A model generated the notes under the pieces. The model saw only the letters and a program-made list of their open reading frames with translations, did not search any database and was not told the DNA's origin. The position numbers and the translations under genes are program-made. 64,000 nucleotides of DNA from Thermodesulfovibrio sp. GTDB taxonomy: Bacteria > Nitrospirota > Thermodesulfovibrionia > Thermodesulfovibrionales > Thermodesulfovibrionaceae. Location of the stretch: the NCBI GenBank assembly GCA_020725335.1, contig DYFF01000007.1, positions 248,001 through 312,000 on the forward strand, in the 5' to 3' direction. Positions 361 through 63,832 of this stretch are shown one piece after another (position 1 is the first letter of the stretch; each line of letters begins with the position of its first letter).

Positions 361-1728
361 CTACACAATAAAAATTAAGTAAAGAAATAGAAAAATTTTT
401 AATATTAAATTCTTATTATCTGCCTTAATTTTTTCAGCCCACCATATTGATTTGTTTATTAATTCATCTTCATCAATAAACTGATGTCTTCCATTAATAA
501 TTACAGGTTTCCCGTTTACGAAAACATCTTCAATATCAGAAGATTTTGCAGAATAAATTATCGTAGAATATATGTCATATATAGGTTGCAGATGAGGTTT
601 TCTCAAATTCATAGTAACTACATCAGCTTTTTTCCCTACTTCAAGGCTTCCTATGTAATTTTCAAGTCCCAAAGCTTTTGCTGCCCATATCGTAAGCATT
701 TTCATACAAGTCTTTACATCAACAACAGTAGGATCTCCAGTTATTCCTTTTTGCACTTTTGCAGCTATTGAAATTTCTTCTAATAAATCTAAATTATTAT
801 TGCTTGCAGCACCATCTGTACCTAAACCAACCTTTACTCCCTTTTTCACCATCCTTGCTATTGGTGCAATACCGCTTGAAAGTTTTAGATTACTTTCTAT
901 GCAATGTGATACTCCTACTCCAAAATTTGACATAATCTCTATTTCTTCTTCATCAACCCAAACTGAATGGGCTGCCAATACAGTTCCTTCAAAAAATCCT
1001 ATTTCTTTAAGATATTTAACTGGTCTCATTCCGTATTTCTTTATAGAATCTTCTACTTCATTAAATGTTTCACTAAGATGAATGTGAATTGGCACACCAA
1101 ACTTTAATGCAATCTCTTTTGATTTTAATAAAGTATCTTTACTACAGGTATAAATTGAATGAGGTGCTACAGAGGGAAATATAAATTCATCATTCTTATA
1201 TTTATTTATAAATTCTAAGGCTTTTGTGAGATAATCATCAGGTCCTCGTCCTGAAGGGGTTTCAAAATCAAGTATTCCCTGTCCTATAACTGCCTTGATC
1301 TTTAAATCCTTTGCCGCATTTGCTATACTATCAGTGAAAAAATACATATCGTTGAAAGTTGTGATACCATTTTTTAACATTTCAAGACAGGCAAGACATG
1401 TTCCATCATAAACAAATTCTTTGCTTAAAAATTTTCCTTCAAGAGGCCAAATATGTTCTCTCAACCATTGATATAATGGCAAGTCGTCAGCTATCCCTCT
1501 CAATAAAACCATAGCAGCATGAGTATGAGTATTAATAAAACCAGGCATTATTGCAGCGTCAGAATGACCATAAATAGGGATTGATGCAGTTTTATACTTT
1601 TTTAAAATCTCTTGAAAAGTGTTGATCTCAATAATTCTATCATCATCAATTACCAAAGCTCCGTTTTCGATTATTTCGTCATTTTCATTCATGGTTATTA
1701 GATATCTACCTCTTAAAATTGATTTCAT
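361..1728 (-). CDS. Amidohydrolase, MTA/SAH deaminase (MtaD) family
   Basis: ORF 455 aa; metal-binding [41 protein letters not shown] motifs of the MtaD/SsnA/MqnX amidohydrolase family. Confidence 0.85.
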
Positions 1729-3620
1729 ATAACCTCCTTTTTCAAAATAAAAACAGATAGAGGCGGTAATGTTAAGTTGAGACTATAAGGTTGGCCATGG
1801 AAACAAATATTTTCAGCATTAATTCCTCCAAAATTTCCAAGATTACTTCCACCATATTCAAATGAATCACTATTTAATATTTCTCTATAAAATCCAGCTT
1901 GAGGAACACCAATTCTGTAGTTAAATCTTGGAACAGGAGTAAAATTGAAGACAAATAATAAAAATTCTCTATCATCTTCACTCTTTCTAAGAAATGAAAT
2001 AATGCTCTGGTCATGGTCAGAAAAATCAATCCATTGAAATCCGTTCCAATGAAAATCGATTTCATATAGTGCCTTTTCATTTTTATAAATAGAGTTTAAA
2101 TCTTTTATAAATTTCAATAAGCCTCTATGCGATTCATCTGAAAGCAAATGCCATTCAAGTTGCCAATTACAATTCCACTCATTTATCTGTCCAAATTCTG
2201 ATCCCATGAATAGTAATTTTTTACCTGGATGTCCATACATATAGCCAAATAGTGCTCTCAAATTTGCAAGCTTTTGCCATTTATCGCCCGGCATTTTTTG
2301 AAATAAAGAACCTTTACCATAAACAACCTCATCATGGGATAGAGGAAGAACAAAATTCTCTGAAAATGCGTATAAAAGACTGAATGTTATAGAATTGGTA
2401 TGATATTTTCTATAAATAGGATCTCTTGAAAAGTAGAATAATGTATCATGCATCCACCCCATATTCCATTTCATTGTAAAACCTAATCCTCCAATGTAAG
2501 TTGGCCGAGTAACCATTGGCCAAGAAGTAGACTCTTCAGCAATTGTCAATGTTCCGGCATACTCTCCATGCGTTAACTCATTCATCCTTCTAAGGAAATC
2601 TATTGCTTCAAGATTTTCCTTCCCACCATATATATTAGGAAGCCACTCTCCCGGTTTCTTTGAGTAATCAAGATATAGCATAGATGCAACTGCATCAACT
2701 CTTAAACCATCTATGTGATAAACATCAAACCAAAATAAGGCATTTGCAATTAGAAAATTTCTAACTTCGTTTCTGCCATAATTAAAAATTAAAGTTCCCC
2801 AATCTTTATGTTCACCCTTACGAGGATCTTCATGTTCATAAAGGGCTGTACCATCGAATCTTATTAAACCGTGTCCATCTTTAGGAAAATGCGATGGCAC
2901 CCAGTCAATTATTACTCCTATATCATTTTGATGGGCATAATCAATGAAATACATGAAATCTTCGGGTGAACCAAAACGACTGGTAGGTGCATAATAGCCA
3001 AGACATTGATATCCCCATGATTCATCAAAAGGATGTTCTGTAATAGGAAGAAGTTCAACATGAGTAAATCCAAGCCATTTAACATATGGAATTAATTCAT
3101 GGGCAAGCTCCCTATAATTCAGAAAACTTCCATCCCCTTTTCTTTTCCATGAGCCAAGATGTACTTCATATATAGACATTGGTGACTTCAACCAGTCTGT
3201 GTTTTTTCTCTTTTCAAGCCATATGGAATCATTCCATTTATATTTATTCTTAGGGTTATAAACAATGCTTGCACTTTTTGGACGAACTTCAAAGAAAAAA
3301 CTAAAAGGGTCAGATTTAATTTGTATAATGTCATTCCATCCATGAATATAATATTTATACAATGTACCTTCAGTTAATCCTTCTATAAATAAACTCCAGA
3401 TACCAGAATTACCAAGAGGACGCATTGGATTTTTTGTATAATCCCAGCTATTAAAATCTCCAAGAACAGAAACATATTTAGCATTTGGAGCCCATACTGC
3501 AAAATGAACGCCTTTTTTATTTTTGTAATCTATTATATGAGCCCCTAATTTTTCATAAATTTTATAATGATTACCTTCTCCTATGAGATATAAATCAAAA
3601 TCTGTTAGAAATTCTTTCAT
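1725..3620 (-). CDS. glgB: 1,4-alpha-glucan branching enzyme
   Basis: ORF 631 aa; N-terminal CBM48-like region, [36 protein letters not shown] motifs. Confidence 0.96.
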
Positions 3621-9594: not shown

Positions 9595-12297
9595 TTATAC
9601 TGTCGACCTTATAATATCTTTTCCTCTCTGCTTTAAATTAGCATGAGCTGATGCGAGCTTAGCTATAGGAACTCTATAGGGTGAGCAACTCACATAATTA
9701 AGTCCTAATTTATTACAAAATTCAATTGAAGATGGATCACCTCCGTGCTCACCACATATCCCGAGCTTAAGATCTTTATTAACTTTTTTTCCTTTTTTAA
9801 CTGCGATCTCCATCATCTGTCCAACACCTTCTGTATCTATTGAAATGAAGGGGTCTTCTGGTATGATTTTTTGGTCAATATATAAGGGTAAAAACTTCCC
9901 TGCATCATCTCTTGAAAGTCCATAAACAGATTGAGTCAAATCATTTGTTCCAAATGAGAAAAACTCAGCCTCAGTAGCTATCTGATCAGCAGTAATTGCG
10001 GCACGAGCAAGTTCTATCATTGTGCCTACTTTATAATCAACCCTTACTTTATAAGCTTTCATTACTTCTTCTGCAGTTTTAACTGTTAGTTGCCGCATAA
10101 TCTTTAATTCATTTACATGGGCAACAAGGGGAATCATTATTTCAGGGATAACTTTTATCTTTTTCTTAGCAAGTTCACAAGCAGCTTCCATAATTGCTCT
10201 TACTTGCATTTCATAAACTTCAGGATAGGTTATTCCAAGTCTACAACCTCTATGTCCAAGCATAGGGTTGAATTCTTCAAGGGATTTAATTTTTGCTTTT
10301 ATTTTCTTGGTAGAAATACCCATTTCTTTTGATAGAACTTCTATCTCTTCATCGGTCTTAGGTAAAAATTCATGGAGAGGTGGATCAAGAAGCCTTATTG
10401 TAACTGGCAGCCCCTTCATTTCTTTGAAAATTCCAATGAAATCTTCTTTCTGATAGGGCTCAATTTTTTCCAATGCTTTTTTTCTTTGCTCTACAGTATC
10501 AGATAAAATCATCTCTCTGAAGGCTTTAATTCTCTCTGTTTCAAAAAACATATGTTCAGTTCTACACAGTCCTATTCCTACTGCACCAAACTCTCTTGCA
10601 ACTCGAGCATCTTTTGGTGTGTCTGCATTTGCCCTAACATTAAGTTTACTTAATTCTTCTGACCATTTCATTATGGTATAAAACTCTTTAGGCAATTTTG
10701 GCATAACAAGAGGTGCTTGTCCAAGAATAACTTCGCCTGTTGTGCCATTTAATGTTATAAAATCACCCTCTTTAACTATTAAATCTCCAACATTGAAATA
10801 TTTTTCCTCTTCATTTATATTTAAAGCGCCACATCCTACCACACAACACTTGCCCATTCCTCTTCCTACAACCGCAGCATGAGAGGTCATCCCACCACGC
10901 GCAGTTAAAATTCCTTGTGAAGCATGCATTCCGCCAATATCCTCTGGAGAAGTTTCTGCTCTAACAAGGATGACTTTTTCTCCTTTTGAAGCCCAATCTT
11001 CAGCATCAGAAGCAGTGAAGACTACTTTACCAACTGCTGCACCAGGACTCGCGGGTAACCCCTTTGCTATAACATTAACTTGAGCTTTTGAATCAATTGT
11101 TGGATGAAGTAGTTGATTGAGTTGTTCTGGTTCGATTCTTAAAACAGCTGTTTTTTTATCAATTAATTTTTCCTTAACCATATCAACAGCTATCTTAATT
11201 GCTGCTGCAGCTGTTCTTTTCCCCACTCTTGTTTGAAGCATATAGAGTTTACCTTCTTGAATTGTAAATTCTATATCAAGCATATCTCTATAATGCCTTT
11301 CAAGTTTGTTACATATATTTTCAAGCTCAGAATAAATCTGAGGCATTCTCTTTTTAAGTTCTTCAATTCTAAGCGGCGTTCTGATTCCTGCAACCACGTC
11401 TTCGCCCTGAGCATTTGGTAAAAATTCTGCAAAAAATCTTTTCTTACCTGTGGAAGGGTCCCTTGTAAAACCAACCCCTGTTCCAGAATTTTCACCCATG
11501 TTACCAAATACCATTGCCATCACATTACAAGCTGTTCCAAGATCATCTGGTATACCATGAAGTCTCCGGTATGTAATGGCTCTATCGCCATACCATGAGT
11601 CAAATACTGCTTTTATTGCCATTTTTAATTGTTCATATGGATCAGATGGAAAATCTTTTTTTGTCTCTCTCTTATACAATTCTTTGTATTTTTTTACTAA
11701 AAATTTTAAGTCTTTTGCATCAAGTTCTGTATCTAATTTAACCCCTCTTTCTTCCTTAACTTTATCAAGTATGTCTTCAAATTTTTTTCTATCAATATTT
11801 GTAACGATACTTCCAAACATGGTTATAAATCTTCTATAGGTATCGTATACAAATCTATCATTTTTTGTTTTTTCTAAAAGACCTTTAAGGGTTTCATCAT
11901 TAAGCCCAAGATTTAAAACTGTATCCATCATTCCCGGCATAGAAAATTTAGCACCTGATCTTACGGATAAAAGCAAAGGATTTTTATTATCACCAAATTT
12001 ATATTTCATTGATTTTTCAATTCTCTTAATATAAGATAGAACTTCCTCCCACAGAACCTCAAGGAACTTTTCACCCTGCTTAAAATATTCACGACAGGCT
12101 TCTGTAGTAATAGTAAATCCAGACGGGACTGGAATTCCTAAATTTGTCATTTCTGCAAGTCCTGCTCCTTTACCTCCTAACAGATCCTTCATTGCTCCTG
12201 TTCCTTCTGCTTTACCATCTCCAAAATAGTAGACATATTTTTTCTGCAGATTTGTTTTTTTGATTTTTTGTAATACTTTTCTTTTTTTTAATGCCAT
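9595..12297 (-). CDS. ppdK: Pyruvate, phosphate dikinase
   Basis: ORF 900 aa; full-length architecture: ATP-grasp domain, phospho-His GGMTSHAAVVGRGMGK, C-terminal PEP-binding FGTNDLTQ / GICGEHGGDP. Confidence 0.97.
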   Translation of the reverse strand: MALKKRKVLQKIKKTNLQKKYVYYFGDGKAEGTGAMKDLLGGKGAGLAEMTNLGIPVPSGFTITTEACREYFKQGEKFLEVLWEEVLSYIKRIEKSMKYKFGDNKNPLLLSVRSGAKFSMPGMMDTVLNLGLNDETLKGLLEKTKNDRFVYDTYRRFITMFGSIVTNIDRKKFEDILDKVKEERGVKLDTELDAKDLKFLVKKYKELYKRETKKDFPSDPYEQLKMAIKAVFDSWYGDRAITYRRLHGIPDDLGTACNVMAMVFGNMGENSGTGVGFTRDPSTGKKRFFAEFLPNAQGEDVVAGIRTPLRIEELKKRMPQIYSELENICNKLERHYRDMLDIEFTIQEGKLYMLQTRVGKRTAAAAIKIAVDMVKEKLIDKKTAVLRIEPEQLNQLLHPTIDSKAQVNVIAKGLPASPGAAVGKVVFTASDAEDWASKGEKVILVRAETSPEDIGGMHASQGILTARGGMTSHAAVVGRGMGKCCVVGCGALNINEEEKYFNVGDLIVKEGDFITLNGTTGEVILGQAPLVMPKLPKEFYTIMKWSEELSKLNVRANADTPKDARVAREFGAVGIGLCRTEHMFFETERIKAFREMILSDTVEQRKKALEKIEPYQKEDFIGIFKEMKGLPVTIRLLDPPLHEFLPKTDEEIEVLSKEMGISTKKIKAKIKSLEEFNPMLGHRGCRLGITYPEVYEMQVRAIMEAACELAKKKIKVIPEIMIPLVAHVNELKIMRQLTVKTAEEVMKAYKVRVDYKVGTMIELARAAITADQIATEAEFFSFGTNDLTQSVYGLSRDDAGKFLPLYIDQKIIPEDPFISIDTEGVGQMMEIAVKKGKKVNKDLKLGICGEHGGDPSSIEFCNKLGLNYVSCSPYRVPIAKLASAHANLKQRGKDIIRSTV

Positions 12298-53417: not shown

Positions 53418-54294
53418 TTGATATTTTTTCTCCCTTTACAGGATGTATAAATTCTATTTTATGAGCATGTAACAGTTGCCTTGGTATTTTTATTTTATAT
53501 GTTTTTAATTCTAAATAAGTTTTCTTACCATAAAGGGGATCACCCAATACAGGATGGCCTATTGATGAAAAATGAACTCTTATTTGATGTGTTCTTCCAG
53601 TTATAATTTTTATTTTTACAAGTGAATAATTATTAAATCTTTTTATTACATTCCATTCGGTGATAGCTTCTTTTGACATTATTGCTTTTGTGGACATTTT
53701 TTTTCTATCAGAAGGTGATCTTCCGATTGGAGAAGTAATTTTTCCATCATCTTTTATTTTGCCATAGACTAATGCAATATATTCTTTTTTTATCTCTCTT
53801 TTTTTAAACATTTCAACAAGTTTGTAATATGCTTCATCATCCATTGCGATGATCATAGCACCAGAGGTATCTTTATCAAGCCTATGAACCACTCCCGGTC
53901 TTAAAGGTCCTCCAATAGTTGCAAGTTTTTTAAAATGATATGCTACAGCATTCATAACAGTTCCATTAGGATGACCTATACATGGATAAACTACTATTCC
54001 AGGTGGTTTTGATATAACAATTAAAAATTGATCTTCGTATAATATTTGAAGTGGAATATTCTGCGGTATAAGTATATTCATATCATTACCATTATCTTTT
54101 TGATAATTTAGAATTTCTACTCTATCTTCTTTTTTTAGTTTATAACTTTTATTTTTGAAAGAATTATTAATTTTAACATGATTTTTTTCAATCATTTCTT
54201 GTGCCTTTGATCTGCTAATATTTAGTTTTTCAGCCAGAAATAGGTCAAGTCTTTTATCTTGATCCTCAATTGAAATGTAAAATTTTTCAATCAT
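53344..54294 (-). CDS. RluA-family pseudouridine synthase
   Basis: S4 domain RLDLFLAEKLNISRSKAQEMI; GVVHRLDKDTSGAMIIAMDDEAY; TGRTHQIRVHFSSIGHPVLGDPLYG. ATG 54294 overlaps the uvrA stop. Confidence 0.95.
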   Translation of the reverse strand: MIEKFYISIEDQDKRLDLFLAEKLNISRSKAQEMIEKNHVKINNSFKNKSYKLKKEDRVEILNYQKDNGNDMNILIPQNIPLQILYEDQFLIVISKPPGIVVYPCIGHPNGTVMNAVAYHFKKLATIGGPLRPGVVHRLDKDTSGAMIIAMDDEAYYKLVEMFKKREIKKEYIALVYGKIKDDGKITSPIGRSPSDRKKMSTKAIMSKEAITEWNVIKRFNNYSLVKIKIITGRTHQIRVHFSSIGHPVLGDPLYGKKTYLELKTYKIKIPRQLLHAHKIEFIHPVKGEKISIEAPLPEDMAEIIKIIEENYGIKQ

Positions 54295-56798
54295 AGATTC
54301 AATTTTTTTTTTAAAAATTGGCCAGTGTAAGATTTTTCGTTCATTGCAATTTCTTCGGGACTTCCTTCTGCTACTAAGTATCCTCCAGAGTCGCCACCTT
54401 CTGGTCCTAAATCTATAATATAGTCCGCACATTTTATTATATCTAAATCATGTTCTATTACTATCACCGTATTGCCTAAATCTACAAGCTTTTGGATTAT
54501 TGAAAGGAGTCTTTCTATGTCAATCATGTGTAACCCGGTTGTAGGTTCATCAAGTATGTAAAGTGTTTTGCCTGTGGGCTTTTTACTTAATTCCTTTGCT
54601 AACTTTACTCTCTGTGCTTCACCTCCAGAAAGAGTGGTAGCAGATTGCCCAAGACTAATGTAGCCCAAACCGATATCTTCCATTAATTGCAATTTATTTT
54701 TTAATTTTGGTATGGAAGAGAAGAAATCTAAAGCCTCAGTTACTGTCATGTTAAGAACATCACATATATTTTTATCTTTGTATTTTATTTTTAATGTCTC
54801 TTCATTGTATCTTCTGCCTTTACATGTATCACATAAAACATAGACGTCAGGTAAAAGATGCATTTTTATCTTTTTTGTTCCATCTCCCTGACAAGATTCA
54901 CATCTACCATCAGATAGATTAAAACTAAATCTTGACTTGCTAAATCCCCTTACCTTTGCCTCAGGCAAAAGAGCAAACAGATTTCTTATCTCGGTCATAA
55001 CTCCCGTATAGGTTGCCGGTGTGGAACGAGAAGTCTTTCCTATAGGATTTTGGTCAATGTATACTACTTTATCAATATTTTCAATTCCTTCGATGGAATT
55101 GAATTTCCCCGGTGTTACATTTGATTTATAAAGTTTTTTTAATAGCGCTTTATATAAAATTTCGAATACCAATGTACTTTTACCTGATCCCGCAACTCCC
55201 GTAATACATATAAAAACTCCAAGAGGAATTTTAACATCTATATTTTTTAGATTATAGGCACCAGCACCTTTTATATGGAGGTATCCAGTTGGTTTTCTTC
55301 TTCGTTGAGGTATAGGTATGGAATTTATATTTGATAGATATCTACCAGTTATTGATTCTGGATTATGAATAAGTTCATGGGGTGAAGATAGATTTATTAA
55401 ATAGCCTCCTTCTTTACCTCCGCTCGGACCTAATTCTACTATAATGTCAGCATTCTGTATAGTAAATTCATCATGTTCTACTATGATTAGTGTATTATTC
55501 ATTTTTTTTAATTCGTTTAAACTTTCAATGATTTTGTAACAGTCTCTCGGATGCAGTCCGATGCTTGGCTCGTCAAGAACATAAAGGACACCGCTTAAAT
55601 GAGAACCAAGTTGAGTTGCAAGCCTTATTCTTTGAGCTTCACCTCCTGAGAGACTAAAGGATGGTCTATTTAATGTCAAATAGGATATTCCAATTTTTTG
55701 AAGAAATCCGAGCTTAATAAATATTTCTTTCAGGATTCTATCAGAGATTTTTCTTTCATAGGAAGAGAGATTTAGATTATTTAAAAACAAATAAAGATCA
55801 TCTAAAGACAATTTTGATATCTCTGATATGTTTTTATCATTAATCTTTATTGCTAAGGCTTCTTTTCTTAATCTATCACCTTGGCATAAAGTGCATAATT
55901 CAAGTTCTATATTTTCTAATGCTTCTTCCTCTTCTTCTATGTTTTCATATCCTATACCTCGACATTTCGGACAAGCACCATATTTACTATTAAAGGAAAA
56001 TAATCTTGGTTCGATATTTGGTAAACTAATTCCACAGCTGGGACAAGCTAACATTGAGCTAAATATGATATCTTTATTGTTCTCCACAACATTAACAATT
56101 ACAGTGTTTGAATATTTAAGCGATAATTCAAGGGCTCTTTTTATTTGTTTTTTATATTTTTCTTTTATAATTATCCTATCAACAACAAGTTCGATATTGT
56201 GTCTTTTATTTTTATCAAGCAATATTTCTCCTGTTAAATCTAAAATTTTTCCATCTATTCTCGCCCTTATAAATCCTTCTGCTTTTGCTTTTTCTATTTC
56301 CGTTTTGTGTTCACCTTTTTTCTCTATGACTATGGGTGAAAGAATTTGAATTTTTGTACCTACAGGTAATTTTAATAAAGTATCTGTCATCTGATTTATA
56401 TCCTGAGTTATTAATTCTCTACCACATTTAGGGCAAAAGGGTTTGCCAATTTTAGAATAAAGAAGCCTTAAATAATCATAAATCTCTGTTATCGTGCCTA
56501 CAGTTGAGCGAGGACTTTTTGAGATCGTCTTTTGATCTATAGAAATAGCCGGAGATAGCCCTTCTATATAATCTATCTCAGGTTTTTGAAATTGTTCAAA
56601 AATTATTCTTGACTCTATAGGTAAGCTTTGTAAAAATCTTCTGTGAGCTTCGGCAAAGATTGTATCAATAGCCAATGAAGATTTTCCAGAACCAGAAGGT
56701 CCTGTAATTACAATAATTTTATTTCTGGGAATAGTTAGGTCAAAATTTTTTAAATTATGCTGCCTGACACCTTTGAGTAAAATATAATTTTGAGGCAT
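54291..56798 (-). CDS. uvrA: Excinuclease ABC subunit A
   Basis: ORF 835 aa; two ABC signatures (FSLSGGEAQRIRLA, TTLSGGEAQRVKLA), zinc-binding CxxC pairs, GLSPAISIDQKTISKSPRSTVGT. Confidence 0.96.
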   Translation of the reverse strand: MPQNYILLKGVRQHNLKNFDLTIPRNKIIVITGPSGSGKSSLAIDTIFAEAHRRFLQSLPIESRIIFEQFQKPEIDYIEGLSPAISIDQKTISKSPRSTVGTITEIYDYLRLLYSKIGKPFCPKCGRELITQDINQMTDTLLKLPVGTKIQILSPIVIEKKGEHKTEIEKAKAEGFIRARIDGKILDLTGEILLDKNKRHNIELVVDRIIIKEKYKKQIKRALELSLKYSNTVIVNVVENNKDIIFSSMLACPSCGISLPNIEPRLFSFNSKYGACPKCRGIGYENIEEEEEALENIELELCTLCQGDRLRKEALAIKINDKNISEISKLSLDDLYLFLNNLNLSSYERKISDRILKEIFIKLGFLQKIGISYLTLNRPSFSLSGGEAQRIRLATQLGSHLSGVLYVLDEPSIGLHPRDCYKIIESLNELKKMNNTLIIVEHDEFTIQNADIIVELGPSGGKEGGYLINLSSPHELIHNPESITGRYLSNINSIPIPQRRRKPTGYLHIKGAGAYNLKNIDVKIPLGVFICITGVAGSGKSTLVFEILYKALLKKLYKSNVTPGKFNSIEGIENIDKVVYIDQNPIGKTSRSTPATYTGVMTEIRNLFALLPEAKVRGFSKSRFSFNLSDGRCESCQGDGTKKIKMHLLPDVYVLCDTCKGRRYNEETLKIKYKDKNICDVLNMTVTEALDFFSSIPKLKNKLQLMEDIGLGYISLGQSATTLSGGEAQRVKLAKELSKKPTGKTLYILDEPTTGLHMIDIERLLSIIQKLVDLGNTVIVIEHDLDIIKCADYIIDLGPEGGDSGGYLVAEGSPEEIAMNEKSYTGQFLKKKLNL

Positions 56799-56799
56799 T

Positions 56800-57843
56800 T
56801 TACTCTTTTTTGTATTCCTTTAATTCTGCCGTAATCTTACCAACATTTACCTTTGTTTCAATTTTTAATGGAATTTTTCTTTCATCATTGCTAATCCAAA
56901 TGAAAATATCACCCTTTCGTTTAAATAAACCCTCTGTCGTTAATTCTGGCTTAATTAATAACGCTTTGATTTCCTTTCCATCCGAGGTTTCGATTGATTC
57001 TTCTTTCAGAATTTTTATTTCTACTGTTGCGAACTTATCGCTATCAAAAATGTCAATAAATATAGGTTTGTTTTTATCTAACTGAAAGGTTCTAAAATAA
57101 AAAAATCCAGACAATACATCCATAAATACTTTATTAATTCCCTTATGAACAGACATTTTATTTTTAATATGATTAATAAATACTATCTCACCTGAATTAT
57201 AATCAAATTTAATCTCCTTATCTCCTCTATATTTACCTTCAATCTGAACAAGACGGAAATATTTTGGTTTTCCATTTTCTAATATACTCTCTGCTTTATC
57301 ATTTACATAGTAAAAGTTTGATATAAATGATGCTGAGTTAACTTCAGATGATATTTTAATGCTTTCAGAATTTCCTCTAACAAATACTGATGCAGAGCCT
57401 GCATATATACCCATCCAATATATATTAAATTTCATTTTTTCATTAATAAATTTTGAAAATCTATTTTGATGATCGGTTGCATTTGAGTTATCTTCTGATT
57501 TTTCAGTTGATTTTGGTAATAATTCATTTGTTTTTTCTGTGGCTTGCTTATTATTTTCTTCAGTTTTTTTATCAACTTCTATTTCCTTATTATTTGTTTT
57601 TTCTTCATTTATTTTTTCTTCATTTATTTTTTCTTCAAGATTTTTTCCCTTAACTTCATCCTTATCTGAAAGAGTATTTTTAGCAGTATTTTGAGCTTTT
57701 ATAGAACTTTCCTTTTTGATTATGTATGCTTCAATGAAATCAAAGTAGGATAAATCAATTTGTACTTTACCAAACAAAACGATTAATCCTAAATGGAAAA
57801 ACACTGAAATAATTATGGCAAATATGATTAATTTATATTGCAT
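56800..57843 (-). CDS. DUF3108-type protein with N-terminal TM and repetitive charged linker
   Basis: ORF 347 aa; EKMKFNIYWMGIYAGSASVFV ... YVNDKAESILENGKPKYFRLVQIEGKYRGDKEIKFDYNSGEI. Confidence 0.75.
   Translation of the reverse strand: MQYKLIIFAIIISVFFHLGLIVLFGKVQIDLSYFDFIEAYIIKKESSIKAQNTAKNTLSDKDEVKGKNLEEKINEEKINEEKTNNKEIEVDKKTEENNKQATEKTNELLPKSTEKSEDNSNATDHQNRFSKFINEKMKFNIYWMGIYAGSASVFVRGNSESIKISSEVNSASFISNFYYVNDKAESILENGKPKYFRLVQIEGKYRGDKEIKFDYNSGEIVFINHIKNKMSVHKGINKVFMDVLSGFFYFRTFQLDKNKPIFIDIFDSDKFATVEIKILKEESIETSDGKEIKALLIKPELTTEGLFKRKGDIFIWISNDERKIPLKIETKVNVGKITAELKEYKKE
57597..57637. repeat. 15-bp tandem repeat (TTTTTTCTTCATTTA, ~2.7 copies)
   Basis: In-frame repeat encoding KINEEKINEEK in the linker of the DUF3108-type protein. 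Confidence 0.9.
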
Positions 57844-58492: not shown

Positions 58493-59719
58493 TTAATAGA
58501 TATCTCGTGAAACTTTAACTGTCAGATCTCCAAGCATATTTGTATAACTTCCAAGTTCGTTATCATACCAGCCATATATTACAGCCTGTGTTACGGGAAT
58601 TTGTAGTTTATCAACAGCAGGGACTCCTATAGAACAAATTTTTGATATATCAAGCGTTATCATAGCCGTTCTTGTATGAGTTTCGCTTCCTTCAATAATA
58701 GCAGCAGGTCCAAAAGCTCCTATTATATCAGTAGATACTTTTTGATCATCGGTGAAAAGGAGATAACCTCTTTTTTCCCTTTCAGAAGCTTCTTTATAAA
58801 TTTTATTAATTAAATCTCCACTGATAATATTCCCTTCCTCATCTCTAAAAGCAACTACAAGAATTATAAGTGAACCAGTAACTACAGGAACTCTTACTGA
58901 TTGCGCTATAAAACCTATGTTTTTCATCTCTGGTAAAACAAGCGCAAGTGTTTTTGCAGCACCAGTGCTCGTAAGGATTATATTATTCATTGCTGAACGA
59001 ATTTTTCTTAAATCTTTTGCGTCCGTTTTTGGTACTCTGTCAAGCACTTGTTGCGAAGCAGTAACTGCATGAACAGTTGCCATAGAGACACTTAAAATCT
59101 TTTCTGCACCAAAATAATCAAGAAGGGGTTTCATCATATGAGCGAGACATGTTGTTGTACAGGATGCACCTGAAATAATCAGATGTTTTTTGTTGTCGTA
59201 CATCTCCTCATTAATTCCCATTATTACTGTTATAGCATCGTCAGGAATTTCTTTTGTTTTATCTTTTATTTTAAAAGGTGCACTTACTATTACTTTATAC
59301 GCACCAGAATCAACATGTCCTCTTACAGAACCTTCTTTTGATTCTGAAGGAAGTGTAGGGTCAAGAAATTTGCCTGTTGTATCAACAACAAGTTTAGCCC
59401 CTTCTTTGTCCCATCCTATATCTTTTGGATTTCTGTTTTCTGTTAGAACCTTAACAGGAATTCCGTCTATGATAATAGTCGAATTTGATTCATCTATTTT
59501 TTCAATCACGCTCTTAGACTTATAACCGTAAAGATAATTATGGAGTCTTCCATAGGTGGAGTCATGTTGAATATAAAAAGCTAAATCCTTTAATGAATTT
59601 CCCACTTTTCTACCCATATTAATAACTATTTTTGAAAAATGTTTTCTTCCAATGTGATGCCACAGTGTAAGTTTACCTATTCTACCTAATCCATTAATTC
59701 CTAAAATTGCCTCAGCCAT
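58493..59719 (-). CDS. Glyceraldehyde-3-phosphate dehydrogenase-like protein (divergent)
   Basis: ORF 408 aa; AILGINGLGRIGKLTLW; catalytic region ISGASCTTTCLAHMMKPLLDYFG...ATVHAVTASQ. Confidence 0.88.
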   Translation of the reverse strand: MAEAILGINGLGRIGKLTLWHHIGRKHFSKIVINMGRKVGNSLKDLAFYIQHDSTYGRLHNYLYGYKSKSVIEKIDESNSTIIIDGIPVKVLTENRNPKDIGWDKEGAKLVVDTTGKFLDPTLPSESKEGSVRGHVDSGAYKVIVSAPFKIKDKTKEIPDDAITVIMGINEEMYDNKKHLIISGASCTTTCLAHMMKPLLDYFGAEKILSVSMATVHAVTASQQVLDRVPKTDAKDLRKIRSAMNNIILTSTGAAKTLALVLPEMKNIGFIAQSVRVPVVTGSLIILVVAFRDEEGNIISGDLINKIYKEASEREKRGYLLFTDDQKVSTDIIGAFGPAAIIEGSETHTRTAMITLDISKICSIGVPAVDKLQIPVTQAVIYGWYDNELGSYTNMLGDLTVKVSRDIY

Positions 59720-59737
59720 TTAAAACCTCCTTTTAGC

Positions 59738-62700
59738 TTAGAAATAATCCATTGAAAGATAAATTTTTTGAGTTTCGTGCTTACCAAAATAGACTAATCC
59801 ACTTCTTCCATCAATGCTTATATAATCACCTTTTTTTAATATCCTTTTTCCTATTTTACACTTTTTTTCGTTTTGTTGCACTATCATCTTTGAAAAACCA
59901 ACAACACAGGTTTTACCGAGTTTTGTAGCAATTATTGAAGCATGAGAAGTTGAACCACCTCTGGCAGTTAGTATTCCATCTGTCTTTGCTATATGAACAA
60001 TATCATCTGGAACTGTATCTGCTCTTACAAGTATAACAGGGATTTCAGGTTCCTGGGCTTTTAAGAGATTAATATCATCAACATCGAAAACCACCTTGCC
60101 TGACAGAGCTCCTCCACTAACTCCTATTCCGGTTCCGAGCTTATTTTCGTTTAATGCAGGTGACGGTAGAAATACAGTGACCATTTCTCCTTTAGAATAG
60201 CTCATTTCCCTTGTTTGAAGTATATATAAATCGCCTTTTCCTCTTCCCTCAAAGGTAAACTCTATCTCTTGATGATCCCATTTCTCTCCGTATATAAGTT
60301 TCTCAGAGATTTGAAGAAGTGATTTATAAATTTCTGGGAATGATTCTTCCAATGATTTCTCATTAATTCTACCTTCATAATTCTTTTGTTCTACTGAAAT
60401 TGGGAAAGTGTTCACAAGGCCCGATACAATATCTTCTCCTTGAGCTCCAGGAGTATAATCTCCCCATAAAACAAGCTTATCAGAGGTATCTTTAGGATTT
60501 CGCGTAAATAAAACACCAGAACCAGAATTGGTATCAAGATTACCAAACACCATTTTCTGCACAACTACTGCTGTGCCCCAGTCTTCTGAAATGCCAAGAA
60601 TCTCTCTGTAAGCCTTTGCTTTAATAGAATTCCAAGAATTAAAAACCTGATTTACGGCAATAAGTAGTTGATTCCAAGGATTTTCCTCTATTTTTATACC
60701 CATTGAAAGAATAAATTCCTTATAAGCAAGAGCAACGTCTTTCATCTGATAAGGTGAAAACTGAATTTTAAATTCCACTTTATATTTCTTCTTATAGAAG
60801 TTCATCAAATTATCAAATTCGTCTCTGTCAAGACCAAAAGACATTCCCCAGCATTGTAAAAACCTCCTGTAACTATCCCATACAAACCAGGGTTTGCCGG
60901 TTTGATTGCTTAATCCTTCAGCAATGTCTTCATTTATGCCAACATTTAAGAAAGAATTCATCATCCCCGGCATAGAAATAGCCCCACCACTTCTAACAGA
61001 GACAAGTAAAGGATTGGATGGGTCAGCAAACTGTTTTTTTGAAGAATGTTCAAGTCGTTTTATAGCATCTTTTAATTCTCTCTCTAAATGCTCACGGGCA
61101 GGTTCAAAATTATTTATCACGTCTCTGCATCGAAAAACTTCTGTGGTAATTATAAAACCAGGTGGCACTGATATATCTTTTGTAGCTAATTTAATTAAAT
61201 TATGCCCCTTGTTACCAAGATGAATTCTATCGTTTATCTCTCTTTTAGGTGTATAAATATCACAGAGAATTTTTTTAGGGTCGTAAGTCATGAGTAAATC
61301 AAGTTCTCTATATGGAAGCCTTTCAGCCTGATTATAGGCAGTTTTAATTATTCTTCCAATAATTCTATCAAGCTGGTTCAATCCTGGATATTGCATTACA
61401 ATGTCTCTTAGAAATTTTTCAGAAGAAGCATTTATGAATTCAAAATTTTCAAGTTCTGTTTTTTCTGAAAGATTATAAATTATCGGAATTACTTTTCTTA
61501 ACCATTTTTTATAAGGTGCTGTGCAATAGGTGTTTACAATATCGCTTACTGATTCAGAGAGATTTCTGAATATATCCATATATTGAGAAAAGGTAAACCT
61601 TCTTATTTCAAGAGCAACAGTAAGCATATCAAGAGTATTTGTAAATTTCTGAGAAGAAATTCCATTTAATTCCAAAATTCTGAGGAAAAGTTTAAGATAT
61701 TTTTCTATTCTAAAAAGGGTGGCTCTTGTTATTAGCTCAAGACCGAGTGATTGTTCTATTTTATCAAGAAGGCTGTTAAGTAAACTTTCAAGTCTAAGAT
61801 ATACGGAAAGAGCATTAAATTTTCTCTCACTGTATCTACCATAAACAGAAGGTATTCCAGCAGCAATATGCCTTTTATGAGCTATGTCCTCAAATGCTTC
61901 ATATTTTTGAGGAGAAATTATTATTTCTTTTAATTCCTCAAGATAGCCTAAAAGAGCTTCAATTTTTTTGTAAAGAGTAGCGTTTTTTAAGACTTCTATC
62001 AAATAAGAGCCATCAGGCAGTCCTAAATATAAAGTTTCTTTAAGAAAGTGCTCTAATTCACAGTAATCAATATAGTACTTACTATAAAGAAGTTGATAAA
62101 GTCTTATAGCAAGTATCACTTTTGTTTTATAATCACTTGGGAAATTGTAGGAATTTAATTTAGCTCCTATTAAATCCAATGGACTCATTAATAAATTTTC
62201 AAGAGAACCGAAATCATTTAGAAGATTATTAAATAGACTTCCTATTTCGCTAAAATGTTCTTTTTCATAACTTAAAGATTCTAATATTTCAAGAGGAATA
62301 TACTTTTTCAATTCTGAATCTTTGCCATTTATGTAAAATTTTATCGACTCTTTAAGTAGTTCCAAAATTAAGGGGCTACTCTCTACATGAACCTGTTTTC
62401 TTATGAAGTGAATTAGAGGATCCTTTCTTTTGAAGAGTTCGTCTACTTCCGTTGAAACAGTTCTTAACTGACCTTCTGCGTTTATTTCATTGAAATAAAC
62501 AGGCAACTTTCTTAATATTGGTTTTACTAAATAAAATAGGGGTATTATTTCTGAATTAAGCAGCTTCGTTATGTCTCTCTGAAAAAAATCAGTATCTTTA
62601 ATATGTACATTCCCAAAAAAAAGATATATGCTAAGCGAAGAAATAAGGTCTCGTGACAGTAATGGTTTTTTGGAAATTAGGTTAATCCACAATCTGAGAT

Positions 62701-63832
62701 TTCTTAGATGATTTCTATTGTCACCAGCTATATATTCTTCGGAGAATCCTTTAACCTGAGGATAATGAAAGCCTATAGAAATTAAAGAATCTATATAAAA
62801 ATTGAGAATGTCCCTATTGTCTAAATCAAAAATTACCTCTCCAATTTCTTCAAGACTGAATAAAACTGCATCTGCATAGAGTTTAAAAAATATAGTCAAT
62901 TTTATGAATATTTTTTCTAATAAATCTATGGTTTTTTTTGTTGACAAAGAAGTTAAAAGAGGGAGAGAAATTTTAATATTTTTACCTATTTCTCTCAAAG
63001 AAAAATCATACAAGTCTGAAAGCACCTCATTTTCTGTAATCCAGAAAAAGTAATAAATCCTGTTTGGTAGATCAATCCAGACATCTTTTGATTGTAGGAA
63101 CTGTTTGTAAAGCTCCCGAAAAATATTAAATATTTCTATTCCCGAAGGAATTTTTATTAATTCATATAAATCATCATTATCTTTTATTTTTTTAGTATTT
63201 TTCTCTAACTCTTTATATAATGAGTTGTAAGCATTTTCAACAAATGGAAAACCTTGTGGGAATATCTCCTTATGATATGTTATGGGATTTTTAATTGAAT
63301 TAATTGACCTGTAGAGGCTAAATAAATATTTTTTGTATAATTCCTTGAAATTAACTACCAACTCTTCATCTACAAGTTGCGTTTTTATGAGAGTTTTGCC
63401 AATTATTCTAAGGCTATCAAGTCTTGGTAAGTAAGTGTCTATTTCAATTGAGAATAGATATCTAAAAACTTCCTTAGCTATAATTAAAAAATTCTGATAT
63501 TCTTTATCATTACATTCCTCGATTAGTTTCAAAGTCATTCTTAGAAGAGATTTGATGCAACTTTCTATAGTATCTCTCTTATGAAGATAATTCAGCAAAT
63601 AGCCAAATAAAAATCTTGTAGCTTCAAAACCTTCCGGATGCTTAAGATAATAATTAAAATATTTTATAAAATGAGTTTCAATTTCATAGGGTATATAGGG
63701 ACTACTGGGAAATTTTTCAAGTTTATTTAGAAGTTCTTCTACACTATTTAGAATTCCAGGATATGAAGAAAAAATTTTAATAATTTTATCTTTTTTTTCA
63801 GAATCGATTTTCATGTTGAAATTATTAAACAT
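59738..63832 (-). CDS. Large PPDK/PEP-synthase-like protein: unassigned N-terminal region, ATP-grasp, phospho-His domain, no PEP barrel
   Basis: ORF 1364 aa; NKGHNLIKLATKDISVPPGFIITTEVF, VSVRSGGAISMPGMMNSFLNVG; C-terminal ILTARGGSTSHASIIATKLGKTCVVG; ends ~65 aa after the His motif. Confidence 0.88.
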   Translation of the reverse strand: MFNNFNMKIDSEKKDKIIKIFSSYPGILNSVEELLNKLEKFPSSPYIPYEIETHFIKYFNYYLKHPEGFEATRFLFGYLLNYLHKRDTIESCIKSLLRMTLKLIEECNDKEYQNFLIIAKEVFRYLFSIEIDTYLPRLDSLRIIGKTLIKTQLVDEELVVNFKELYKKYLFSLYRSINSIKNPITYHKEIFPQGFPFVENAYNSLYKELEKNTKKIKDNDDLYELIKIPSGIEIFNIFRELYKQFLQSKDVWIDLPNRIYYFFWITENEVLSDLYDFSLREIGKNIKISLPLLTSLSTKKTIDLLEKIFIKLTIFFKLYADAVLFSLEEIGEVIFDLDNRDILNFYIDSLISIGFHYPQVKGFSEEYIAGDNRNHLRNLRLWINLISKKPLLSRDLISSLSIYLFFGNVHIKDTDFFQRDITKLLNSEIIPLFYLVKPILRKLPVYFNEINAEGQLRTVSTEVDELFKRKDPLIHFIRKQVHVESSPLILELLKESIKFYINGKDSELKKYIPLEILESLSYEKEHFSEIGSLFNNLLNDFGSLENLLMSPLDLIGAKLNSYNFPSDYKTKVILAIRLYQLLYSKYYIDYCELEHFLKETLYLGLPDGSYLIEVLKNATLYKKIEALLGYLEELKEIIISPQKYEAFEDIAHKRHIAAGIPSVYGRYSERKFNALSVYLRLESLLNSLLDKIEQSLGLELITRATLFRIEKYLKLFLRILELNGISSQKFTNTLDMLTVALEIRRFTFSQYMDIFRNLSESVSDIVNTYCTAPYKKWLRKVIPIIYNLSEKTELENFEFINASSEKFLRDIVMQYPGLNQLDRIIGRIIKTAYNQAERLPYRELDLLMTYDPKKILCDIYTPKREINDRIHLGNKGHNLIKLATKDISVPPGFIITTEVFRCRDVINNFEPAREHLERELKDAIKRLEHSSKKQFADPSNPLLVSVRSGGAISMPGMMNSFLNVGINEDIAEGLSNQTGKPWFVWDSYRRFLQCWGMSFGLDRDEFDNLMNFYKKKYKVEFKIQFSPYQMKDVALAYKEFILSMGIKIEENPWNQLLIAVNQVFNSWNSIKAKAYREILGISEDWGTAVVVQKMVFGNLDTNSGSGVLFTRNPKDTSDKLVLWGDYTPGAQGEDIVSGLVNTFPISVEQKNYEGRINEKSLEESFPEIYKSLLQISEKLIYGEKWDHQEIEFTFEGRGKGDLYILQTREMSYSKGEMVTVFLPSPALNENKLGTGIGVSGGALSGKVVFDVDDINLLKAQEPEIPVILVRADTVPDDIVHIAKTDGILTARGGSTSHASIIATKLGKTCVVGFSKMIVQQNEKKCKIGKRILKKGDYISIDGRSGLVYFGKHETQKIYLSMDYF

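Follow-up and report, generated by a model that had tools for sequence, protein, structure and literature searches.

The window analysed here, a stretch of 64,000 nucleotides of a Thermodesulfovibrio genome (GCA_020725335.1, contig DYFF01000007.1, positions 248,001 to 312,000), harbors a pair of genes encoding a dikinase that is devoid of the phosphoenolpyruvate (PEP)/pyruvate barrel found in pyruvate phosphate dikinase (PPDK), and a divergent paralogue of glyceraldehyde-3-phosphate dehydrogenase, which we refer to as GAPDH'. An earlier note on the sequence had placed an open reading frame of 1364 residues at 59738-63832, which is confirmed here and assigned to the minus strand, where it starts with ATG. 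The dikinase is a member of type A, one of two subfamilies (A and B) that share a conserved helical core. The features of the locus, with the evidence on which they are defined, are as follows.

59738-63832, minus strand: type A barrel-less dikinase, 1364 residues, first gene of the pair (open reading frame, Pfam, phmmer, homologue alignment)
62768-63832, minus strand: variable all-helical N-terminal region, residues 1-355 (AlphaFold2, conservation scoring)
61259-62761, minus strand: conserved helical putative acceptor domain, residues 358-858, with the core common to types A and B (A2 alignment, AlphaFold2)
62375-62401, minus strand: motif RKQVHVESS, residues 478-486, with near-invariant R478, K479, H482 and S486 (alignment, conservation scoring)
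61817-61894, minus strand: beta-hairpin region, residues 647-672, carrying the conserved motif EDIAHKRHIAAGIPSVYGRYSERKF (also written KRHIAAGIPSVYGRY) (alignment, AlphaFold2)
60203-61228, minus strand: PPDK-type ATP-grasp domain, residues 869-1210, with K875, R947, E1191, Q1206 and R1208 (phmmer, structure comparison)
59741-60169, minus strand: phospho-His swivel domain, residues 1222-1364 (Pfam, phmmer, structure comparison)
59942-59944, minus strand: codon of His1297 in GGSTSHAS, predicted to be catalytic (invariant in homologues)
59726-59730, minus strand: Shine-Dalgarno-like GGAGG of the downstream gene, within the 18-nucleotide intergenic gap (sequence)
58493-59719, minus strand: GAPDH', a divergent type I GAPDH paralogue of 408 residues that retains Cys187, His217 and Arg276

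Catalytic half and helical domain of the dikinase

As the earlier note had read from its motifs, the C-terminal part of the dikinase combines a PPDK-type ATP-grasp domain with the GGSTSHAS signature of a phospho-His domain and ends shortly after the histidine, at a distance that was estimated at about 65 residues and that we measure as 67 residues past His1297. Pfam detects only PPDK_N (residues 914-1162, 3.9e-34) and PEP-utilizers (residues 1265-1345, 2.5e-18) and no PEP/pyruvate barrel in the protein, and in phmmer residues 869-1209 and 1222-1360 align to a PPDK of known structure (1.2e-83). In all barrel-less relatives of our first locus set, 71-74 residues separate the start of the GGxTSHA motif from the C-terminus, which, together with a histidine at the position of His1297 that is invariant in 62 of 62 aligned homologues, rules out a truncation or a chance open reading frame.

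The catalytic residues of C. symbiosum PPDK (K22, R92, E323, Q335, R337 and H455) have counterparts in K875, R947, E1191, Q1206, R1208 and H1297, all of which are kept in type A and also in type B, where the last arginine is sometimes replaced by lysine. The model of the ATP-grasp and swivel domains folds like PPDK (1kbl, E=6.4e-32, root-mean-square deviation 3.1 Å), with the swivel domain in a position that matches the state of 1kbl and 1dik (about 3 Å), which in PPDK is the one facing the acceptor side, and that agrees less well with 2r82 or 1vbg (13-15 Å). Over the same parts, the protein is 41-43% identical to the PPDK of its own genome, a separate and intact protein of 900 residues with the motifs FGTNDLTQ and CGEHGGDP, whose gene is located at 9595-12297 as described previously.

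The N-terminal region is predicted to be helical with a single beta-hairpin at residues 647-668 (AlphaFold2 of residues 1-866 with 41 sequences, pLDDT 89, pTM 0.83; residues 165-1364 with 62 sequences, pLDDT 88, pTM 0.72). Since a Foldseek search of the PDB with the N-terminal model retrieved mainly long helical-repeat proteins at TM-scores of 0.1-0.2, the domain has no fold match, and neither Pfam (0 of 41 members at E<=0.001) nor a comparison of the core profile with PDB sequences (none at E<=10) assigns it to a family, in line with the earlier impression that the first 870 or so residues resemble nothing recognisable. Conservation is unevenly distributed. No residue is invariant between 165 and 355, the part of the variable region that was scored, whereas the segments 365-510 and 615-765 are about as well conserved as the ATP-grasp domain and include invariant residues of both basic and acidic character. 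The near-invariant positions include H375, D413, R457, T461, D464, R478, K479, H482, K585, E648, the triplet K653-R654-H655, Y667, E669, K671, Q750, D753, R809 and D822, and these polar and charged residues are as would be expected of a putative pocket for an anionic substrate. Residues 358-858 may thus constitute a putative acceptor domain, new to the swivelling-histidine dikinases and modelled without a recognised fold.

The two subfamilies are about 26% identical and have many invariant polar and charged residues in common. Type A proteins comprise about 1360-1410 residues, type B proteins about 1450-1515 with a different and longer N-terminal start, and both types occur together in some genomes (G347, G325, G379 and G357). 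Three core positions tell them apart (H475/Y, E484/N and E805/D), which would be compatible with different acceptors. In a tree of the ATP-grasp and swivel domains, from which a non-dikinase sequence of locus L092 (a PqqD/radical-SAM/methyltransferase protein) was left out, type A (0.995), type B (0.89) and PPDK (0.997) form separate clades, with A and B joined at 1.0 and a weakly supported root on PEP synthase (0.083). This phylogeny, which the earlier note had proposed as a check, places A and B in one clade apart from PPDK, and the combination of dikinase and helical domain therefore probably arose once. Among 396 Nitrospirota genomes, several of them incomplete, a profile of the core (A2, residues 364-858) detected the family in 67; the sensitive profile counts given here refer to this phylum, and the scan beyond it used exact peptides of the dikinase. 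Homologues are found in 15 of the 16 searched genomes of Thermodesulfovibrio, the thermophilic sulfate reducer that hosts the window (exception G004), and beyond the genus in further families of its order and class, while phages and plasmids contained no homologue of the N-terminal domain and viral contigs gave only a PPDK. In type B (L095-L111, L132-L134) we also observed an extra N-terminal piece, CSLDYLxGTLATAYKG, and in several members an ASHA in place of TSHA.

Compared with known systems, the dikinase belongs to none of the named families tested, as it differs from PPDK in the barrel, from VadK in the number of domains, from rifampin phosphotransferase in domain order and profile score and from glucan water dikinase in the carbohydrate-binding modules. 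With PPDK (1kbl, 2r82; TIGR01828) it shares the ATP-grasp domain with its catalytic residues and the swivel domain with TSHA, but instead of the barrel it contains 866 extra N-terminal residues of unrelated fold, and its TIGR01828 score of 402 bits is below the cut-off of 843. Glucan water dikinase and phosphoglucan water dikinase act on a non-pyruvate acceptor and carry the His domain ahead of the ATP-grasp domain. The window protein resembles them as a dikinase-type enzyme with a putative non-pyruvate acceptor but has neither carbohydrate-binding modules nor this order. VadK (Rv1127c) is likewise derived from PPDK, without a barrel and encoded near genes of metabolic enzymes, in this case prpC and prpD, and was described as a regulator acting by interaction (PMC13400623), but it consists of the ATP-grasp and His domains only. 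Rifampin phosphotransferase and the phenolic dikinases HpeHI and PpsAB (PMC4844700, PMC12167813) similarly combine an ATP-grasp domain and a His swivel with a non-barrel acceptor domain; their order is, however, ATP-grasp, acceptor, His (or they are split into two subunits), their acceptor domains are dissimilar, the ATP-grasp motif resembles that of PEP synthase in the phenolic kinases (PMC12167813) and that of PPDK in the window protein, and the dikinase scores 47.7 bits in RIF_Ptrans_rph against a cut-off of 999.

A co-encoded GAPDH paralogue

The strongest clue to the function of the dikinase is the divergent GAPDH encoded directly downstream, which lies beyond the region covered by the earlier note and was missed there. 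GAPDH' was detected with its own profile (A4) in 45 of the 396 genomes, that is in 44 of the 44 genomes with a type A dikinase, from eight families, and in 1 of the 352 without, counts that are uncorrected for relatedness. In 38 of the 44 genomes the two genes are direct neighbours on one strand, with a median gap of 21 nucleotides (43 loci measured, some of them near-duplicates); in four (G319, G379, G152 and G357) a contig end leaves adjacency undecidable, and in two (G165 and G248) the genes are far apart, yet both retained. In the neighbourhoods of 40 loci, GAPDH' is the sole partner conserved across families and other flanking genes vary. Genomes without both genes (G004 in family f1; G017, G029 and G040 in f3; G026 and G037 in f12) belong to the same families as genomes with the pair, which argues that the two were gained or lost jointly. 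Domain anatomy and pairing are both well supported, and we found no paper on such a pair in the literature. In G236 (L146, 92% complete), GAPDH' adjoins a gene that by eye resembles glgC and no dikinase of this kind was found; the many short open reading frames of the contig hint at errors in the assembly or at decay.

The protein has retained the features of a type I GAPDH (TIGR01534, PDB 1vc2), since Cys187, His217 and Arg276 are invariant in 18 members and the phosphate-site motifs are kept. Insertions in the adenosine loop for NAD and close to the C-terminus set it apart, as does its length (408 residues and more compared to about 330-345), and its TIGR01534 score of 312.6 bits is below the cut-off of 367.2. 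An N-x-G-R-x-x-G insertion takes the place of the NAD-specific Asp32, and an invariant Arg228 that of Leu187. By the known cofactor determinants of GAPDH, these two replacements point to NADP, and the cofactor is probably NADPH. GAPDH' is not a stand-in for an absent gap or pgk, because each of the 23 genomes tested has both normal genes, which instead identifies it as a specialised paralogue. A second, divergent PGK of 435-469 residues (about 250-277 bits compared to about 530 for the normal protein) was encountered in G128, G154, G027, G375, G335, G347, G317, G277 and G325, where it does not correlate with type A, and was rejected as a partner of the dikinase since the window's own genome is without it.

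Candidate acceptors and chemistry

The domain content, the retained catalytic residues, the single conserved family and the two-gene unit are direct observations; from these we infer the relay, the identity of the acceptor, the direction of the reaction and its cofactor in the following way. The dikinase would have arisen from a PPDK-like enzyme of which it kept the catalytic half. Bound to the ATP-grasp domain, ATP would phosphorylate His1297, and the swivel domain would then carry the phosphoryl group to an acceptor held in the helical residues 358-858, a substitute for the pyruvate barrel. The acceptor could be a small phosphorylated or carboxylic metabolite that is also handled by GAPDH'. 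We give even chances to this scheme, in which a swivelling-histidine relay serves the N-terminal domain and a metabolite is shared with GAPDH', and the pair itself points to a two-enzyme step of sugar-phosphate metabolism that has gone unrecognised. The previous proposal that the N-terminus binds a non-pyruvate acceptor is thereby supported, though not proven, by the missing barrel, the separate conserved fold, the catalytic-looking invariant residues and the PPDK encoded elsewhere in the genome.

In its most economical form, the chemistry would convert a carboxylate resembling (phospho)glycerate into an acyl phosphate at the expense of ATP, with formation of AMP, and GAPDH' would reduce this intermediate to the aldehyde, probably with NADPH. 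Together the two would amount to a version of PGK/GAPDH that effectively runs one way. We propose an acyl phosphate because kinases that make such intermediates for a reductase of the GAPDH fold are a known pattern, as in PGK/GAPDH, LysC/Asd and ArgB/ArgC. By this analogy, a combination of an AMP-forming dikinase for phosphoglycerate or another sugar acid with an NADPH-type GAPDH is conceivable, but we regard it as doubtful, and a substrate resembling 3-phosphoglycerate is a guess that we hold just as tentatively. Several points weigh against the scheme. Type B contains the acceptor domain, yet GAPDH' was absent from the type-B-only genomes checked, where no neighbouring gene is conserved across families, and acyl-phosphate chemistry linked to GAPDH' can therefore not cover the whole family. 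With normal gap and pgk genes at hand, a second route would be superfluous except under different conditions, and we know of no PPDK-type swivel enzyme with an acyl phosphate as product. If true, the step would allow gluconeogenesis to circumvent phosphoglycerate kinase and GAPDH in one direction, much as PEP synthase or PPDK circumvents pyruvate kinase. The family brings a putative acceptor domain of no known fold to the swivelling-histidine mechanism, for which few acceptors are known, and near-perfect co-occurrence links the dikinase to a dehydrogenase of central metabolism. Should both proteins act on one metabolite, these Nitrospirota would contain a step of central carbon metabolism that is absent from current maps, as its genes would be annotated merely as PEP/pyruvate-binding protein and GAPDH.

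The main rival, which we consider possible if unlikely, is a regulatory role in the manner of VadK from M. tuberculosis, a barrel-less PPDK that autophosphorylates on histidine and interacts with enzymes of the methylcitrate cycle whose genes lie close by (PMC13400623). By this precedent, the dikinase would autophosphorylate on His1297 and control GAPDH' or another enzyme by binding or phosphorylation, its N-terminus acting as a protein-binding solenoid. The variable first 355 or so residues would suit a scaffold, and the N-terminus has weak structural matches to alpha-solenoid proteins such as importins and CRM1, although TM-scores of 0.12-0.18 do not reflect a real fold match and VadK itself is without such a domain. 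The near-invariant charged residues of the core also speak against this role; because they are shared with type B, which is without GAPDH' in the type-B-only genomes checked, they are not simply a docking site for this protein. Still less probable, in our view, is a catabolic sequence in which a free sugar, triose or polyol such as glyceraldehyde receives phosphate from the dikinase and the product is oxidised by GAPDH'. The phosphate-binding motifs kept in GAPDH', the alpha-glucan phosphorylase that adjoins the pair in three f10 genomes and the glgC-like gene beside GAPDH' in G236 would fit such a pathway, but genes for transport or sugar catabolism are not conserved next to the pair and a dikinase would be a costly route to a sugar phosphate.

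Very improbable, by comparison, is a glucan dikinase of the glucan water dikinase type, an acceptor that the earlier note had considered in view of glgB, which is located as described in the window (1725-3620). Besides this gene, an alpha-glucan phosphorylase is encoded in the genome and adjoins the pair in the three related genomes, but this phosphorylase (TIGR02094) was present in 30 of 31 genomes irrespective of the dikinase and is hence not discriminating, and glgB is about 56 kb distant. No carbohydrate-binding module or beta-rich domain was found by Pfam in 41 members or in the helical AlphaFold2 model, and the ATP-grasp domain precedes the His domain, opposite to the order of the glucan enzymes, so that the suggestion of a glucan finds no support here. 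Least credible is a split PPDK whose barrel would be supplied in trans: its ATP-grasp and His domains are PPDK-like, but the same genome encodes a complete PPDK, the conserved neighbours of the dikinase include no barrel gene, and types A and B form a clade separate from PPDK.

Other genes near the pair

In the f10 loci L080, L082 and L083, the alpha-glucan phosphorylase near the pair is encoded on the opposite strand. Upstream of the type A gene in G337, a fusion of PqqD, radical-SAM and methyltransferase domains (804 residues) is followed by a B12-binding radical-SAM protein (L092:3559-7492, plus strand). The nitrate-resistance gene DVU0246 of Desulfovibrio (2235 bp, about 745 residues), which contains PPDK_N domains (PMC4001038), was discarded as a lead, since a shared N-terminal domain was not shown. 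On the minus strand of the window, we also noted a DUF3108 protein with a charged low-complexity insert (56800-57843) and a UvrA-like ABC ATPase of 835 residues (54291-56798), which contains a UvrA interaction domain, is shorter than usual UvrA and is possibly a UvrA2-type paralogue.

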